Source of the DNA: Ferrovaceae bacterium
GTDB taxonomy: Bacteria > Pseudomonadota > Gammaproteobacteria > Burkholderiales > Ferrovaceae
Reading direction: 5' to 3'
DNA length: 33,161 nt
Assembly (NCBI GenBank): GCA_027311025.1
Contig: DAICZS010000016.1
Span: forward strand, 1 to 33,161
In this document: positions 26,030-33,161 of the stretch, one piece after another
Numbering within the stretch: position 1 is the stretch's first letter
Layout: each line of letters opens with the position of its first letter
Translations under genes and position numbers: made by a program
The notes under the pieces: generated by a model
What the model saw: the letters and a program-made list of their open reading frames with translations, nothing else
Database searches by the model: none
Told to the model about the DNA's origin: nothing

Positions 26030-28201
26030 TTACTGGCGGTAAGCGGCCTCGACCCCTGCCACCGACTGCAGCGCCTCGAGCGCCCGCGCCATCTGGTCGA
26101 GTGAGGTAATCTGCACGGTAAAGCGCATGCGCGCGCGATCACCGCGCGACTGGGTGTTGACGGCCGTGACGTTGATGCGCTCGCGGGTGAAGGTTTCAGA
26201 AATGTCGCGCAATAATCCCTGCCGGTCCACCGCATCCACCGCAATGTCCACGCTGAACACGCCCTGGGAGGTTTTACCCCAGGAGGCCGGAATCATGCGC
26301 TGCCACTGGTTGGTGGTGAGGGCCGCGAGACTGCGGCAATTGGCCCGGTGGATGCTGACGCCGCGCCCGCGCGTGACAAACCCGACGATGGGCTCGGGCG
26401 GCACCGGCTTGCAGCATTTGGCCATGAATGTGGCAATGTTGGTGACGCCCAACACCAGTACGCCTTCGCTGCCGGTTTCTGCGGCACGGCGCAGGGTGGG
26501 GGTGAGGTCGGCTTCGACAGGGGGCGCCTGGGGCTCGAGCAGCAATTCAATCTGGCGCGGTGAAACATCACCGCGTGCCAGTCCCACCCAGAAATCTTCC
26601 ACGCGCGGAAAGCCCGACTGGGCGGCGAGGCGCTCCAGGTTGGGGTGGCCCTTGCCGAGGCGTGCCAGGATCTTTTCCAGGATGGCGCGCCCCTGCGCGA
26701 TGTCCTCTTCCAGGTGCTGCTGCTTGAACCATTGCCGCACCTTGGCCTGGGCGCGCGGGCTTTTGAGGTAGCCGTACTCGGGATTGAGCCAGTCGCGGCT
26801 GGGGCCGCCCTGCCGCACGGTAATGATTTCCACACGCTGCGCATTTTGCAGCGGCTGGTTGAGGGGCACGATGGCGCCGTCCACCTTGGCGCCGCGGCAG
26901 CGATGACCCAGATCGCTGTGCACATGATAGGCAAAGTCCACGGGCGTGGCCCCACGCGGCAGGTCGATGACGCGTCCCTGCGGCGTGAACACGTAGATGG
27001 TCTCGTCTGCCGGGGCCTGGGCCGCACCCCGTGTGGCGGCATGGGAGACCTCCTTCTGCCATTCCAGCATCTGCCGCAGCCAGGCCACGCGCTCGTCAAA
27101 ACGGCGGTCGGCGCGAGACCCGCCTTCCTTGTAGCGCCAGTGCGAGGCGATGCCGAGTTCGGAATCGCGGTGCATTTCGCGCGTGCGAATCTGGATCTCC
27201 ACCGCCTTGCCTTCCGGCCCGATGACGGCGGTATGCAACGAGCGGTAGTGGTTGCCCTTGGGGCGCGCGATGTAATCGTCAAACTCCCCCGAGATGGGGG
27301 TCCAGAGATGGTGGACGATGCCCAACACCGCGTAGCAGTCGCGAATCTCTTCGACGATCACGCGCACCGCGCGCACGTCGTAGAGCCCTTCAAAATCCAG
27401 GCTTTTGCTGCGCATTTTCTTGACGATGCTGTAGATGTGCTTGGGGCGCCCCTGCACGGTGCCGGTGATGCCTGCCGTTGCCAGTTGTTCTTCAAGGGTC
27501 TGGATCAGGGTGGCAATGTAGCGTTCGCGGTCCACCAGGCGCTCGTCCAGGCGCCTCGCAATGGCCTTGTAGGTATCGGGTTCGATGATGCGAAACGACA
27601 GGTCCTCGAGCTCCCATTTGAGCTGCCACACGCCCAGCCGGTTGGCCAGCGGCGCGTACAGATCCATGGTCTGGTGGGCCACGGCCAGCTGCTCGGCAGG
27701 ATCGCGTTGCTGGAGGCTGCGCATCAGCCACACCCGCTCGGCCAGCGCCACAATCACCACGCGGATGTCCTGGGCCATGGCCAGCAGCAGCTTGCGCACC
27801 CCCTCCAGGCGCTGGGCGTCGTTGGCAAGGCGGTCGCGGGTGCGGAAAATGCCCGCCAGGGTGGTGTCGATCCGGTGCAGGTCGGCGGCCAGGGCCGCAA
27901 CATCGGGGTCGTAACTGTGGGCCAGATCCAGGCGTTCCTGCTGCTCCCAGGTCAGTGCGCGCAAGAGCGCCACCACGATGCAGGCCGGATGCGCCTCGAG
28001 GTCGCTCAACAAGCGCGCCGTGGTGAGCGCGCATTGCAGGGACTCGGCGTCTCCTTCCTGGGTGCGTTCCTGTTCGGTAACCTGGAGGAAGGCGCGCTCG
28101 ATCAGGACCGCGTCCGGCTGGAGATAACGTTGGTTGAGCCCCAGCCCGGCCAGCCCATGGCCTGCGTCGGAAACCTCCAAAACGTGTGTGCGTGAAACCA
28201 T
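26030..28201 (-). CDS. relA: GTP pyrophosphokinase RelA
   Basis: RelA makes (p)ppGpp when uncharged tRNA stalls ribosomes. The 723-aa protein has an N-terminal pseudo-hydrolase region in which the SpoT HD motif is lost (ALLRALTWEQQERLD). The synthetase domain carries GRPKHIYSIVKKMRSK, YDVRAVRV and EFDDY (306-310, the RelA-type acidic EXDD), followed by the ASHWRYKEG segment. A TGS domain runs from about 403 (YVFTPQGR) and a C-terminal ACT domain from about 645. This marks it as RelA, not a bifunctional SpoT/Rel; a hydrolase must be encoded elsewhere. The ATG at 28201 has AAGGA 6 nt upstream. The upstream gap is shared with the sigma-54-controlled cluster. Confidence 0.94.
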   Translation of the reverse strand: MVSRTHVLEVSDAGHGLAGLGLNQRYLQPDAVLIERAFLQVTEQERTQEGDAESLQCALTTARLLSDLEAHPACIVVALLRALTWEQQERLDLAHSYDPDVAALAADLHRIDTTLAGIFRTRDRLANDAQRLEGVRKLLLAMAQDIRVVIVALAERVWLMRSLQQRDPAEQLAVAHQTMDLYAPLANRLGVWQLKWELEDLSFRIIEPDTYKAIARRLDERLVDRERYIATLIQTLEEQLATAGITGTVQGRPKHIYSIVKKMRSKSLDFEGLYDVRAVRVIVEEIRDCYAVLGIVHHLWTPISGEFDDYIARPKGNHYRSLHTAVIGPEGKAVEIQIRTREMHRDSELGIASHWRYKEGGSRADRRFDERVAWLRQMLEWQKEVSHAATRGAAQAPADETIYVFTPQGRVIDLPRGATPVDFAYHVHSDLGHRCRGAKVDGAIVPLNQPLQNAQRVEIITVRQGGPSRDWLNPEYGYLKSPRAQAKVRQWFKQQHLEEDIAQGRAILEKILARLGKGHPNLERLAAQSGFPRVEDFWVGLARGDVSPRQIELLLEPQAPPVEADLTPTLRRAAETGSEGVLVLGVTNIATFMAKCCKPVPPEPIVGFVTRGRGVSIHRANCRSLAALTTNQWQRMIPASWGKTSQGVFSVDIAVDAVDRQGLLRDISETFTRERINVTAVNTQSRGDRARMRFTVQITSLDQMARALEALQSVAGVEAAYRQ

Positions 28202-28227
28202 GAGTCATCCTTGCACTGATGCCTGTG

Positions 28228-28233
28228 AGTATA
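28228..28233 (-). promoter_or_regulatory. -10 element of the relA promoter
   Basis: The minus strand has TATACT 27-32 nt before the relA ATG, predicting a leader of about 20 nt. The -35 region at 17-nt spacing (28251-28256) reads GTCAAG, which is weak, so an activator may be needed. An NtrC-like dyad begins at this -35. Confidence 0.4.
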
Positions 28234-28255
28234 GCCCAAGCGGAAAGGCGCTTGA

Positions 28256-28272
28256 CGCACCGGTTTGGAGCA
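28256..28272. promoter_or_regulatory. NtrC-like binding site
   Basis: The sequence CGCACCGGTTTGGAGCA matches the enteric NtrC consensus TGCACC-N4-TGGTGCA at 11 of 13 conserved positions (mismatches at the first and fourteenth bases). Its centre is about 104 nt before the predicted sigma-54 start at 28368, a standard enhancer distance. A further GCACC half-site starts at 28288, 31 nt (three helical turns) downstream. The site also abuts the relA -35. Identification is by eye from the consensus. Confidence 0.5.
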
Positions 28273-28321
28273 TTCGCCCGCGGGGCCGCACCATGAAAGC
28301 CCCCAGCGCGCCAGAATGCCC

Positions 28322-28340
28322 CAAAACGCCCGGGGTTTTG
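28322..28340. repeat. Inverted repeat just upstream of the sigma-54 promoter
   Basis: A perfect 6-bp dyad, CAAAAC-N7-GTTTTG, with a CCCGGG core ends 2 nt before the -24 element. No T-run follows, so it is not a terminator. It might be an operator or have no role. Confidence 0.35.
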
Positions 28341-28341
28341 A

Positions 28342-28357
28342 TGGCACGCTCCTTGCT
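28342..28357 (+). promoter_or_regulatory. Sigma-54 (RpoN) promoter of the ATP-grasp/Anbu cluster
   Basis: TGGCACG-CTCC-TTGCT is an exact match to the sigma-54 consensus TGGCACG-N4-TTGCW, with GG (28343-28344) and GC (28355-28356) exactly 10 nt apart. Transcription should start near 28368, about 33 nt before the ATG of the first gene. No convincing IHF site is seen between it and the NtrC-like dyad. Confidence 0.8.
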
Positions 28358-28400
28358 GCTCTGTTGGGCAAGTGCAAACCATTGAGGGGCCTTACCCATC

Positions 28401-29840
28401 ATGTCGCTCCAGCAACGGCAAGCCGCGACCCCGGGCGCTCACGACGAGATGCACCGACCCGACGGGAGCATCCACACGGCCTACTCAGACTATGCGCGCT
28501 GGCTGGGCGAGGTTTCGCCCGAGGTGCTCAACCAGCGCCACAGGGAAGCCGAGCTGCTGATTGCCCGGCTGGGCATCACCTTTGCAGTGTACGGCGATGA
28601 AACTGGCGTCGAACGCTCCATTCCCTTCGACGTCATCCCCCGCATCCTCTCGGCGCGTTCCTGGGACACCATTGAACGCGGCTGCATACAACGCATTCGT
28701 GCCCTGAATGCGTTTTTGAAAGACATCTACTTCGACCAGGAAATCATCAAGGCCGGGCTCATCCCGCGCGCCCAGGTCACGGGCAACGCCATGTTCCGTC
28801 CGGAAATGATTGGCATTGCCCTGGCCCAGGACATCTACGCCCATGTGGCGGGAATCGATGTGGTCAAGGTGGATGAGGAACGTTTTTACGTGCTGGAGGA
28901 CAACCTGCGCACCCCCTCCGGCGCATCCTACATGCTGGAAAACCGTCGCATGATGATGCGCCTGTTTCCTGATCTTTTTAGCCGCATGCCGGTTCTGCCC
29001 CTGGACCATTACCCGGACCTGCTGGTGGAAGGATTGCGCGCCGTATCCCCGCGCCACATCAGCAGCCCCACGATTGTCCTGCTGACACCGGGATCGTTTA
29101 ACAGCGCCTATTTCGAGCATGCTTTCCTGGCGCAGCAAATGGGCATCGAGCTCGTCGAGGGCCAGGACCTGTTCGTCAAGGGCGACGTGGTGTACATGCG
29201 GACCACGCAGGGACCGCAGCAGGTGGATGTGATTTACCGGCGCATCGACGATGACTTTCTCGACCCGCTGGCATTCCGCCCGGATTCCGTGCTGGGCGTG
29301 CCCGGACTGCTCAATGCCGTGCGCGCGGGAAGTGTCACGCTGGCCAACGCCGTGGGTACCGGGGTTGCGGACGACAAATCCACTTACGTGTACGTGCCCG
29401 AGATGATTCGCTTCTATCTGGGAGAAGAGCCCATCCTGTCCAACGTGCCCACCTACCGCCTGTCGCGACCAGAAGATCTCGTCTATGTCCTGGCCAAATT
29501 ACCCGAACTGGTGGTGAAGGAAGTGCAGGGATCGGGTGGGTATGGCATGTTGATCGGCCCCAGGGCCTCGCAGGCGGAACTTGCGGCGTTTCGCGAACGC
29601 ATCAAGGCCAACCCCGATAACTATATTGCGCAGCCCACCCTGGCACTGTCCACCTGCCCCACGCTGGTGGCGGATGGCATTGCCCCACGTCATGTGGATT
29701 TGCGCCCCTACATCATCAGCGGCCGGGACGTGCGGATCACACCCGGCGGGCTGACGCGCGTGGCCCTCCAGCAAGGATCGCTGGTGGTTAATTCGTCCCA
29801 GGGTGGTGGTACCAAAGACACCTGGGTACTGGGGAGCTGA
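28401..29840 (+). CDS. Circularly permuted ATP-grasp protein (type 2; DUF404/DUF407)
   Basis: This 479-aa protein is of the circularly permuted ATP-grasp family, predicted to form peptide or amide bonds with ATP. It shows the diagnostic LEDNLRTPSGASYML (165-179), a tyrosine/aspartate-rich N-terminal region (HTAYSDYARWL), and the glycine-rich nucleotide-binding KEVQGSGGYG (373-382) followed by SGRDVRITPGG near the end. Family members occur in operons with alpha-E, transglutaminase and Anbu proteins, as here. The substrate is unknown. The ATG at 28401 is preceded by GAGGGG at about 11 nt. It is the first gene after the sigma-54 promoter. Confidence 0.92.
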   Translation: MSLQQRQAATPGAHDEMHRPDGSIHTAYSDYARWLGEVSPEVLNQRHREAELLIARLGITFAVYGDETGVERSIPFDVIPRILSARSWDTIERGCIQRIRALNAFLKDIYFDQEIIKAGLIPRAQVTGNAMFRPEMIGIALAQDIYAHVAGIDVVKVDEERFYVLEDNLRTPSGASYMLENRRMMMRLFPDLFSRMPVLPLDHYPDLLVEGLRAVSPRHISSPTIVLLTPGSFNSAYFEHAFLAQQMGIELVEGQDLFVKGDVVYMRTTQGPQQVDVIYRRIDDDFLDPLAFRPDSVLGVPGLLNAVRAGSVTLANAVGTGVADDKSTYVYVPEMIRFYLGEEPILSNVPTYRLSRPEDLVYVLAKLPELVVKEVQGSGGYGMLIGPRASQAELAAFRERIKANPDNYIAQPTLALSTCPTLVADGIAPRHVDLRPYIISGRDVRITPGGLTRVALQQGSLVVNSSQGGGTKDTWVLGS

Positions 29841-29842
29841 TC

Positions 29843-30802
29843 ATGTTAAGCCGCACTGCCGATCATCTGTACTGGATGGCGCGCCACATGGAACGCGCCG
29901 AAAACACGGCGCGCATGCTGGATGTCACCTCGCGCATGATGTTGCTGCCCAGCAGCATGAAAGTGCCTGAACAACCCTGGGCCGCGCCATGGGCGGTTCC
30001 CCAGATCACCACGGGACTGGCTTCCCACTACTACGCACTCTATTCCGACCTCAGCGCACAGAACGTGCTCAAGTTTCTGGTTACCGACATCGACAACCCC
30101 TCCAGCATTTGCGGCAGCATTTTTGCCGCACGCGAAAATGCACGCTCGGTTCGAGGGGCCATCACCTCGGAAATGTGGGAGAGCATCAACGCCACATGGA
30201 TCGAATTTCGCAACGTCAGCCCGCAGTCGCTGGAGGCAGGTCAGATCGGCAATTTTTTTGACCGCGTCAAATTAAGTTCGCACATGTTTCGTGGCGTATC
30301 GGTAGGCACCTCGCTGCACGACGAGTCCTATCACTTCATCCGTCTGGGCACCTTCCTGGAACGGGCCGACAACACGGCACGCATCCTGGACGTCAAATAC
30401 CACATCCTCCTTCCATCGCCAACGGACGTGGGTGGGGCCCAGGACTACTACCAATGGGGTGCCTTGCTGCGCTCGGTGAGTGCCTTCGAGGCCTATCGCA
30501 AAATCTACCGCGATGTCATCGTGCCGCTCAAGGTGGCCCAGCTGCTGATCCTGCGCATGGACATGCCGCGATCGCTGCACGCCTGCATGGACGAAATTCA
30601 CGACATTCTTGAAATCCTGGTGGGAAACACCGGTACGGAAGCGCGACGCATGGCCGGGGAGTTACACGCCCGACTGCACTACGGACGCATCGAGGACATC
30701 ATGACTTACGGCCTGCACGAGTATCTCACCGATTTTCTTGAACAGACCCATCGCCTGGGAAGCCACATCAATCAGAGCTTTTTCTCCCATGAGCTTCAAT
30801 AA
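29843..30802 (+). CDS. Alpha-E domain protein (DUF403)
   Basis: This is a 319-aa all-helical protein of the alpha-E family (COG2307), beginning with the typical MLSRTADHLYWMARHMERAENTARMLDV. A second copy-like segment, IRLGTFLERADNTARILDV, occurs near 170-190 and suggests an internal duplication. The biochemical role is not established; it is predicted to act with the ATP-grasp enzyme. GGGGAG lies 6 nt before the ATG, and the gap to the preceding stop is 2 nt, so the two are translationally linked. It ends with TAA, then a 77-nt gap before the Anbu gene. Confidence 0.9.
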   Translation: MLSRTADHLYWMARHMERAENTARMLDVTSRMMLLPSSMKVPEQPWAAPWAVPQITTGLASHYYALYSDLSAQNVLKFLVTDIDNPSSICGSIFAARENARSVRGAITSEMWESINATWIEFRNVSPQSLEAGQIGNFFDRVKLSSHMFRGVSVGTSLHDESYHFIRLGTFLERADNTARILDVKYHILLPSPTDVGGAQDYYQWGALLRSVSAFEAYRKIYRDVIVPLKVAQLLILRMDMPRSLHACMDEIHDILEILVGNTGTEARRMAGELHARLHYGRIEDIMTYGLHEYLTDFLEQTHRLGSHINQSFFSHELQ

Positions 30803-30879: not shown

Positions 30880-31638
30880 ATGACTTACTGCGTTGCCGCC
30901 AATCTCAATGCCGGCATGATCTTCGCTTCCGATTCGCGCACCAATGCAGGCGTGGACAACGTGGGGCGCTTTTGCAAGATGCGAATTTTCGAAAACCCGG
31001 GCGATCGCGTCATTGTCACGCTCACCTCCGGAAACCTGGCCATCAGTCAGGGCACGGTCAATCTGTTGATCCAAAACGCACGGCTTTCGGACCGCAAAAA
31101 TATCTGGAACTGCACTTCGATGTACGAAGTGGCCATCCTGCTGGGCGATTGTCTGCGCGAAATCCAGCAACGCGACGGCCCCTACCTGACGCAACGCAAT
31201 ATCGACGCCAGCGCCTCCTTTCTGGTGGGGGGGCAAATTCAGGGCGAAGAACCCCGACTGTTCAACATCTATTCCGAGGGGAATTTCATCGAAGCCTCGC
31301 TCGATACACCGTTCTTCCAGATTGGCGAAACCAAATATGGCAAGCCCATCCTGGATCGTGTGCTGGTGCCACAGACACCGCTGCGCGAAGCATCCAAATG
31401 CGTGATCGTTTCTTTCGATTCCACCATGCGCAGCAACATCTCGGTGGGCCCACCCATCGATCTTCTGGTTTACGAAAAGGACGCCTTGCGCGTGCGGTTG
31501 CACAAACGTTTCGACGAGAACAACCCGTATCTCTCCCTGGTTCACCACCAATGGGGAGAGGGGTTGCGCCAGGCCTTTGGTCAGCTCCCGGACATGGACT
31601 GGACTGACGATGGCCATCCGCGTAACACTGAGCCATAA
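30880..31638 (+). CDS. Anbu-type proteasome-like peptidase
   Basis: This is a 252-aa Ntn-hydrolase of the Anbu (bacterial proteasome homologue) family, related to HslV and 20S beta subunits. The start MTYCVAANLNAG fits removal of Met to expose Thr2 as nucleophile. Asp18 (ASDSRTNAGVD) and Lys33 (FCKM) match the Asp17/Lys33 pair of proteasomal subunits. The rest has the alternating beta/alpha pattern with SFLVGGQIQGEEPRLFNIY. Members form oligomeric assemblies; peptidase activity and natural substrates remain poorly defined. GGAG lies about 10 nt before the ATG. The 3' end overlaps the next gene by 29 nt. No ATPase unfoldase is adjacent, so protein unfolding by this complex is doubtful. Confidence 0.92.
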   Translation: MTYCVAANLNAGMIFASDSRTNAGVDNVGRFCKMRIFENPGDRVIVTLTSGNLAISQGTVNLLIQNARLSDRKNIWNCTSMYEVAILLGDCLREIQQRDGPYLTQRNIDASASFLVGGQIQGEEPRLFNIYSEGNFIEASLDTPFFQIGETKYGKPILDRVLVPQTPLREASKCVIVSFDSTMRSNISVGPPIDLLVYEKDALRVRLHKRFDENNPYLSLVHHQWGEGLRQAFGQLPDMDWTDDGHPRNTEP

Positions 31639-33161
31639 GACCTTCTATCGGTTCGATCGCCCCACCCAGATCTTTCCCCACGAAATCCGCCTGCGTCCTG
31701 CGGCGCACTGCCGCACACCCGTGAGCGGGTATGCGCTGCACGTTGCCCCCGGACACCATTTCGTCAACTGGCAACAGGACGGCTACGGCAACTGGGTAGC
31801 CCGGCTGGTGTTTCCGGAACCGGCCAACGCGCTGGAAATTGAAGTGGGCCTCGTGGCAGAGATGACGGTGATCAATCCCTTCGATTTTTTCATCGAGCCT
31901 TACGCCGAACATTTCCCCTTTGCCTATCCCGAGCCCCTTGCAGGCGAACTGGCCCCCTTTCTGGAAACCCTGCCACCAGGCCCGCTGCTGGAACGGTATG
32001 TGCAGTCACTGAAGCAGGACGTGTCGGCAACCCCACCGCTCACCATCGATTTTCTTGTCGCCATGAATCGCCGGTTGCAGCAGGATATCCGTTACAACAT
32101 CCGTCTGGCGCCGGGCGTACAGACCCCTGAAGAAACGCTATCGCAACGGCTGGGCTCGTGTCGCGACAGCGCCTGGCTACTCGTGCAGGTTGCCCGACAT
32201 CTGGGCCTTGCAGCCCGGTTTGTCTCGGGATACCTGATTCAGCTTGTGGCCGATCAAAGGCCGCTGGAGGGGCCGTGCGGACCTGCAGAGGATTTCACCG
32301 ACCTGCACGCCTGGGCCGAAGTCTATCTTCCCGGGGCAGGCTGGCTGGGCCTTGACCCCACCTCCGGATTGCTGGCCGGCGAAGGTCATCTCCCGCTGGC
32401 CTGCACGGCCTCGCCCCAATCGGCAGCGCCAGTGACAGGCGCCACGGGCCCATGCGAAGTGACGTTCGGCTTCGCCATGACGGTCACCCGTATTGATGAG
32501 GCACCACGGGTGACGAAACCCTACACCGAGGCCCAATGGACCGCCATCGATGCCTTGGGACAGCAAGTGGATCAGGAGCTGGCAGCAAACGGGGTGCGCA
32601 TGACCATGGGAGGCGAACCCACCTTTGTCGCCGTGGACCATCTGGAAAGTCAGGAATGGCATACCCAGGCCCTGGGCCCCCATAAACGACAGCTGGCCGG
32701 CCTGTTGTTCCAGCGACTGGCGGCCCATTGGGCTGCGGGTGGGGTGCGGCATCATGGCCAGGGCAAATGGTATCCGGGTGAGCCCTTGCCCCGATGGGCA
32801 CTCAATCTGTTCTGGCGGACGGATGGGCAACCGCTGTGGCACAACCCACAGCTGTTGGCCCATGACGATCCTGAGGTTGCAGCAAAACCCGAAGCGGCAC
32901 AACGGTTTGCCGCGGCACTGGCCACCCGCCTGGGGATTGTTCCGGCGCGTGTGATCGCGGCTTTCGAAGACCCCCTGCAGTTCCTCAAGGAAGAGGCCGC
33001 CCTGCCGGCAAACCTGGACCTGTCGCGCGCAGCGTTACACGACGATCTGGAACGCGCACGCCTGGTCCGTTTGCTGGCGGGTGATCTGCAGCAACCGGCA
33101 GGTGCCGTCATTCCCCTGCAGCCAGCCCCACGGCTCGACCCCCGGCAGCCCACCACCTGGA
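31610..33161 (+). CDS. Transglutaminase-like / DUF2126 fusion protein (partial, runs off the window)
   Basis: An open frame runs from the ATG at 31610 to the window end with no stop (517 codons seen). The N-terminal region is the bacterial transglutaminase N-domain (VTLSHKTFYRFDRP, MTVINPFDFFIEPYAEHFPF). The catalytic domain follows, with Cys184 (GSCRDSAWLL), His233 (DLHAWAEVYLP) and Asp249 (LDPTSG), a complete papain-like triad. The DUF2126 part starts near 290-330 (MTMGGEPTFVAVD at 331-343). Full-length relatives are about 1,100 aa, so roughly half is missing. The start lies within the Anbu gene, so coupled translation is likely. The predicted role is cleavage or formation of amide bonds; the substrate is unknown. 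Confidence 0.9.
   Translation, partial: MAIRVTLSHKTFYRFDRPTQIFPHEIRLRPAAHCRTPVSGYALHVAPGHHFVNWQQDGYGNWVARLVFPEPANALEIEVGLVAEMTVINPFDFFIEPYAEHFPFAYPEPLAGELAPFLETLPPGPLLERYVQSLKQDVSATPPLTIDFLVAMNRRLQQDIRYNIRLAPGVQTPEETLSQRLGSCRDSAWLLVQVARHLGLAARFVSGYLIQLVADQRPLEGPCGPAEDFTDLHAWAEVYLPGAGWLGLDPTSGLLAGEGHLPLACTASPQSAAPVTGATGPCEVTFGFAMTVTRIDEAPRVTKPYTEAQWTAIDALGQQVDQELAANGVRMTMGGEPTFVAVDHLESQEWHTQALGPHKRQLAGLLFQRLAAHWAAGGVRHHGQGKWYPGEPLPRWALNLFWRTDGQPLWHNPQLLAHDDPEVAAKPEAAQRFAAALATRLGIVPARVIAAFEDPLQFLKEEAALPANLDLSRAALHDDLERARLVRLLAGDLQQPAGAVIPLQPAPRLDPRQPTTW

Follow-up and report, generated by a model that had tools for sequence, protein, structure and literature searches.

A predicted NtrC-activated sigma-54 promoter in front of an ATP-grasp/Alpha-E/Anbu gene cluster in a Ferrovaceae bacterium

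In the stretch of DNA analyzed here (the window; 33,161 nt of a Ferrovaceae genome), a cluster of genes for ATP-grasp, Alpha-E, Anbu and transglutaminase-DUF2126 proteins is very probably switched on under nitrogen limitation by an NtrC-activated sigma-54 promoter at positions 28342-28357. NtrB would phosphorylate NtrC when nitrogen is limiting, and phosphorylated NtrC would bind at 28257-28271, loop to the closed complex and open the promoter with ATP; transcription would then begin near 28368 and run through the whole cluster. More tentatively, the products might both form and cut amide bonds (the ATP-grasp and DUF2126 proteins as ligases, together with the transglutaminase and the Anbu hydrolase), and the nitrogen of proteins or peptides might be recovered or re-used in starvation. 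Since this kind of control is already known from Burkholderia cenocepacia and Pseudomonas putida, the Ferrovaceae locus is to be regarded as a new member; what is new concerns the candidate activator of the Ferrovaceae cluster, the counts on conservation and an apparently promoter-specific change at -12 in Oxalobacteraceae-type genera.

The Gene Cluster and Its Neighborhood

The first gene of the cluster (28401-29840, + strand) encodes a circularly permuted ATP-grasp protein of 479 aa, which matched the Pfam families PF14403 (549.9 bits) and PF04174 (512.6 bits). It is followed on the same strand by genes for an Alpha-E protein (former DUF403) of 319 aa (29843-30802; PF04168, 329.1 bits), for an Anbu proteasome-like subunit of 252 aa (30880-31638) and for a transglutaminase-like protein with a DUF2126 domain (putative amidoligase; 31610-33161; PF08379, PF01841, and PF09899 over the cut-off), the last of which is cut by the contig end at 33161. 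Searches of the Anbu subunit against Pfam and NCBIfam yielded no match; five PDB sequences named Anbu or Peptidase were matched (best 5loy_A, E 4.4e-94). By eye, the subunit also has Thr1, Asp17, and Lys32, as compared with the residues named in a structural paper (PMC6376114). All four kinds of genes by which an Anbu cluster is recognized are therefore adjacent and co-directional in the window. Among the best 80 of 593 confirmed related stretches, an Alpha-E gene was present in all 80 loci and an Anbu gene in at least 58 within the DNA covered.

Four other genomes of the same genus (G001-G004) gave no match to the ATP-grasp protein. As each of these is less than 90% complete, this may reflect either missing sequence or a gain or loss within the genus. 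At another locus (L126, G024:C64:2-1464), a C-terminal ATP-grasp piece immediately precedes the N-terminal portion of a further copy, an arrangement that may represent tandem copies or an assembly fault.

Upstream, the cluster shares the intergenic region 28202-28400 with a divergent gene of the RelA/SpoT family (26030-28201, - strand), identified by a profile match.

The Promoter Word

Sigma-54 promoters are described as carrying GG at -24 and GC at -12, 10 nt apart, in a TGGCAC/TTGCW context (PMC5491218). The word TGGCACGCTCCTTGCT (28342-28357, + strand) shows 0 mismatches to TGGCACG-N4-TTGCW with a GG-to-GC gap of 10 nt, exactly as the preliminary description of this DNA had claimed for the RpoN consensus. 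The description also placed this promoter in front of the ATP-grasp/Anbu cluster, where it indeed lies, but its distance of 44 nt to the ATG has to be corrected, as 43 nt separate the end of the word from the ATP-grasp ATG at 28401. The geometry of sigma-54 promoters, with a start 12 nt past the C of the -12 GC, puts the predicted transcription start at 28368 (+ strand), ahead of a probable ribosome-binding site, GAGGGG, recognized by eye at 28384-28389 (+ strand). A simple and rather crude scan of 28100-28450 found no sigma-70-like promoter.

In 400 dinucleotide shuffles of the window, with both strands counted, the mean number of occurrences per shuffle was 0.0275 for the 12-position word and 0.295 for the 10-position word TGGCA-N6-TTGCW. 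When the 199-nt intergenic stretch was shuffled 20000 times, 35 of the resulting sequences contained the latter on the + strand. Across the 2.23-Mb genome the 10-position word was found 17 times, compared with 5 times for a reversed-word control, and TGGCACGCTCCTTGCT is the sole one of the 17 with the full TGGCACG form. Words with up to two mismatches showed no excess, the window containing 6 where the shuffles predict 5.53, and were discarded as evidence; the weight therefore lies only on the exact match and on its conservation. Considered without conservation, the word is suggestive of a promoter.

Conservation Before Orthologous Clusters

Conservation provides the main evidence for the proposed promoter. 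The orthologue set consisted of the best 80 of the 593 confirmed related stretches and of 20 further loci including the window's own, the upstream region being defined as a maximum of 300 nt ahead of the start. Loci with less than 100 nt of upstream sequence (L032, L037, L060), the window itself (L106) and a locus whose 150 nt upstream are identical to those of L049 (L114) were excluded, which left 95 regions; partial or second ATP-grasp matches (L126-L133) were likewise kept out of the counts. The same species may recur across the two sets, as only identical upstream DNA was removed.

At the same position before these orthologous clusters, where the preliminary description had suggested looking for it, a sigma-54 word with at most two mismatches was present in 79 of the 95 other regions, in 75 cases not more than 80 nt from the start. 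Eight regions contained a word with 0 mismatches and 40 a word with at most one. When the letters of the motif were permuted 1000 times, the number of regions averaged 1.86 and never exceeded 10 at up to two mismatches, and averaged 0.12 and never exceeded 2 at up to one. On the opposite strand, a word with at most two mismatches was found in 3 of 97 regions. Counting from the start of the alignment for the best 80 of 593 gave a similar picture: the motif scored in 69 of 80 loci, whereas its reversed form reached 8 and a search of the minus strand 3. Due to shared ancestry, and as several come from one genus, the 95 regions are not independent trials.

Sixteen of the 95 regions lacked a site at this threshold; they include the three loci from Ralstonia and two from Herbaspirillum. 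L028, L079 and L096, also among the 16, are artefacts of start-codon choice, each having a two-mismatch site when counted from the start of the alignment. In two Cupriavidus loci and one Burkholderiaceae locus (L077, L081, L104) there is no near site, and the best words, of the TGGCAARCATCTTGCT type, lie 192-241 nt upstream; these far words possibly reflect relocation of the promoter, an extended leader or misassignment of the start codon.

The related loci among the best 80 of 593 are mostly betaproteobacterial, with some gammaproteobacterial loci with a site among them (e.g., L043, L057, L064, L080, L082). In a class-wide draw, the ATP-grasp gene was found in 55 of 185 genomes, and a site with up to two mismatches in 10 of the 29 best loci excluding the window (permuted mean 0.60, maximum 5, in 300 trials), 4 of the 10 being within 80 nt of the start; leaving aside the two nearest loci (L135, L136), the count was 8 of 27. 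With a site in just 10 of these 29 loci, control of this type is patchy among distantly related members of the class.

The Upstream Site and the Activator

A putative NtrC-like activator site, GCACCGGTTTGGAGC, which the preliminary description had overlooked, is located upstream at 28257-28271 (+ strand), with one mismatch to GCACC-N5-GGTGC, the NtrC dyad word. Its center lies about -103 from the predicted start and 78 bp before the promoter word, and it thus falls within the distance of about 100-150 nt upstream that is usual for NtrC sites (PMC5491218). When that stretch of DNA was shuffled 3000 times, a one-mismatch site arose in 47 cases, and by itself the match carries modest weight. Four of the 11 same-family loci were aligned with the window: the dyad block GCAC-N7-GNGC is invariant among them, and no invariant runs are longer than GCAC in one half of the dyad and GGCA and TTGCT in the promoter. 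Among the 75 promoter-near regions (from the best 80 of 593 and the 20 loci), 30 have a dyad with at most one mismatch at a gap of 5, compared with 0-8 regions for the 14 other gap lengths tried; the remaining 45 of the 75 fall short of the one-mismatch mark. In the window's own genome, TGGCACGCTCCTTGCT is the only one of the 17 matches to the 10-position word to have an NtrC-like site with up to one mismatch within 200 nt upstream. A genome-wide search for a complete pair (exact NtrC half-sites, 40-70 nt, GG...TTGC) yielded no signal over its control, with one match on the reverse strand of contig C32 and, for the control pattern, one forward and one reverse match; owing to its one mismatch, the window's own pair cannot match this pattern.

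The genome contains one match for rpoN and seven for the sigma-54 activator domain, three of them strong. One of the strong matches is NtrC (TIGR01818, 713.9 bits versus a curated cut-off of 558.6), encoded beside a gene for NtrB (NF008293, 343.1 bits versus a cut-off of 240). As all but two of 41 relatives (39) carry rpoN whether or not they possess the cluster, and the ATP-grasp gene occurs in 21 of 41, presence of rpoN is weak and non-discriminating evidence and was dropped as an argument in its own right. The sigma-54 control asserted in the preliminary description nevertheless finds support in the conserved position of the site, together with the presence of an rpoN gene and the outcome of the sigma-70 scan. 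The description further held that an AAA+ activator is needed and left its identity open; the analysis agrees with this need, and NtrC is the most likely activator, as indicated by a site at the right distance, the conserved spacing and the NtrB and NtrC genes.

Of the two other strong activators, L002 is nearest to GlrR and L004 was assigned to no type; neither passed a cut-off among the 25 models listed per protein. Given three strong activator genes, the promoter could be a genuine sigma-54 promoter that is driven by one of these two proteins and responds to a signal other than nitrogen. We consider this improbable, as the conserved dyad has the spacing of NtrC sites and is common to the glnA promoter, and as the comparable cluster of B. 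cenocepacia requires ntrC (PMC5491218).

The glnA locus (longest frame 469 codons) of the same genome likewise has a sigma-54-like word with NtrC-like dyads upstream, including one with a single mismatch. It differs from the cluster promoter in the two mismatches of its word and in its longer leader (103 nt). At the ammonium-transporter loci L165 and L166, no sigma-54 word with up to two mismatches was found, and these loci can therefore not serve as a positive control; glnA serves as one.

The Divergent relA-Type Gene

It has also to be considered that the NtrC-like site might act as a shared enhancer, which would drive the divergent relA-family gene as well and couple nitrogen starvation to (p)ppGpp. 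This would add to NtrC-dependent control of the cluster and would not replace it. The relA-type gene is divergent not only in the window but also in 5 of the 11 same-family loci (flanks up to 1.5 kb) and in L026-L028, i.e., 3 of the best 80 of 593 loci, and the two responses are reported to be coupled in Escherichia coli (PMC4066584). However, no conserved sigma-54 word directed towards the relA-type gene was found in the window and eight relatives: the best word on this side has 3 mismatches in the window, and those of the eight relatives have 3-5 and lie in other places. A divergent sigma-54 promoter for this gene was rejected on these grounds, shared control is unsupported on the relA side, and a dual role of the site appears quite unlikely.

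Expression of Related Clusters

In nitrogen-limited B. cenocepacia H111, loss of ntrC was reported to change the expression of the genes I35_5080-5083 by log2 -8.2, -9.4, -9.4, and -6.0; they belong to the most NtrC-dependent genes and are named among the common sigma-54/NtrC targets (PMC5491218). By locus number, this cluster comprises genes for DUF404/DUF407 (ATP-grasp) and DUF403 (Alpha-E) as well as two of the transglutaminase-like kind and in this resembles the one studied here, a likeness of domain names only and not of sequence. No Anbu gene is named for I35_5080-5083, whereas the Ferrovaceae cluster has Anbu between Alpha-E and the large transglutaminase/DUF2126 gene, its control being deduced from sequence.

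P. putida KT2440 offers a second comparison, PP_2685-PP_2688, with proteasome-like and transglutaminase genes, three of the four being induced by nitrogen limitation and assigned to NtrB/NtrC by the authors (PMC7801951). In the wild type, PP_2686-2688 were 12.6-, 11.0-, and 14.7-fold up, and the 20S-proteasome-like gene PP_2685 hardly moved (1.12; PMC7801951, Table 2). The cluster differs in that induction persists in an rpoN mutant, with 14.2-, 16.0-, and 19.6-fold increases for PP_2686-2688 (PMC7801951, Table 2); strict sigma-54 dependence can for this reason only be predicted for the cluster in the window. These data are difficult to read, because the urt genes, also assigned to NtrC, likewise stay induced in this mutant (PMC7801951). 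Either the mutant or the condition was unusual, or sigma-54 is dispensable in P. putida. A relA/spoT mutant of this species showed stronger induction of the cluster (PMC7801951).

The promoter word could, lastly, be a chance match and the cluster be constitutively expressed from an unrecognized sigma-70-type promoter, as might be argued from the 17 genome-wide occurrences of the 10-position word, many of them inside open frames, from the rpoN-independent induction in this one P. putida data set and from an Anbu expression reported as moderate and constitutive, unchanged under several conditions with the exception of nitrogen limitation in P. putida (PMC5666114), but in view of a site in 79 of 95 regions, 75 times within 80 nt of the start, and of the crude scan of 28100-28450 that revealed no sigma-70-like site, this is most unlikely.

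Other reports touch on the same genes. The link of Anbu to nitrogen is repeated in its structure papers (PMC5666114, PMC6376114). According to a survey from 2025, the sigma-54 regulon includes a COG3484 proteasome-type protease, with enrichment among alpha-, beta-, and gammaproteobacteria (PMC12316311); the survey applied a position weight matrix to many genomes, and its passages on Anbu-type genes do not include NtrC sites at the cluster. In marine metagenomes, DUF403/404/407 were tied to urea metabolism domains (PMC3597751), and a passage of a Caulobacter NtrC paper concerns another transglutaminase gene, hvyA (PMC10274813). Within the limited collection of literature searched, no paper containing both Anbu and NtrC as whole words was found.

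Variation at -12

Of 81 sites (from the best 80 of 593 and the 20 loci), 55 have an intact -12 GC, while A stands in place of its C in 21 and T in 5. Sites with A or T belong to Oxalobacteraceae-type genera, to Limnobacter and to L046, L062, L114, and L118. The genera concerned (Undibacterium, Massilia, Duganella, and the like) we take to be Oxalobacteraceae. Twelve loci of such genera have A or T in place of this usually invariant C upstream of ATP-grasp: L040, L053, L058, L068, L083, L089, L091, L098, L099, L101, L103, and L105.

In these 12 genomes, picked for the A or T at -12 of the cluster promoter, TGGCACG-N4-TTGHW words were counted by hand, and 71 of 107 retained TTGC; the reversed-pattern control gave 35 in all, and many of the 107 may be chance matches. 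Of the 36 words without TTGC, 8 are, judging from their sequence, the site of the cluster itself. Since 71 of 107 words genome-wide keep TTGC, the change looks promoter-specific. It would accordingly be particular to the cluster promoter in Oxalobacteraceae-type genera and is new here.

The pair of NtrC site and sigma-54 promoter may even be an old core switch of ATP-grasp/Alpha-E/Anbu systems across Betaproteobacteria and some near gammaproteobacterial lineages, with a promoter that was re-tuned by lineage (-12 GC to GA or GT in Oxalobacteraceae-type genera and Limnobacter), changing how tightly it is held off. We put this forward tentatively and regard it as possible, though rather doubtful. 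If it holds true, the system would be devoted to nitrogen starvation, making and breaking amide bonds in order to recover the nitrogen of proteins or peptides. For Anbu, there are a solved particle and recognizable enzyme families in the cluster, and the available passages of the structural papers report no substrate (PMC6376114, PMC5666114); a switch tied to NtrC and nitrogen limitation would provide a growth condition in which to seek substrates and phenotypes. The conservation suggests that such control is widespread in betaproteobacterial relatives and not a quirk of the two studied strains. Proof of the generality of the switch in Betaproteobacteria, and the role of the induced enzymes, would be new.

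Other Sigma-54-Like Words in the Genome

Two other matches to the 10-position word in the same genome are of interest. At L018 (G000:C66:6207-6222), the TGGCA-N6-TTGCW word TGGCACAACCCTTGCT is accompanied by an NtrC-like dyad with two mismatches and lies, as judged by eye, near the 5′ end of a frame resembling the urease accessory protein UreD. At L021 (G000:C72:78488-78503), TGGCACAGTCGTTGCT is located 44 nt before a transporter-like frame of 414 codons (MFS by eye) and is a candidate for a second sigma-54 promoter in this genome.
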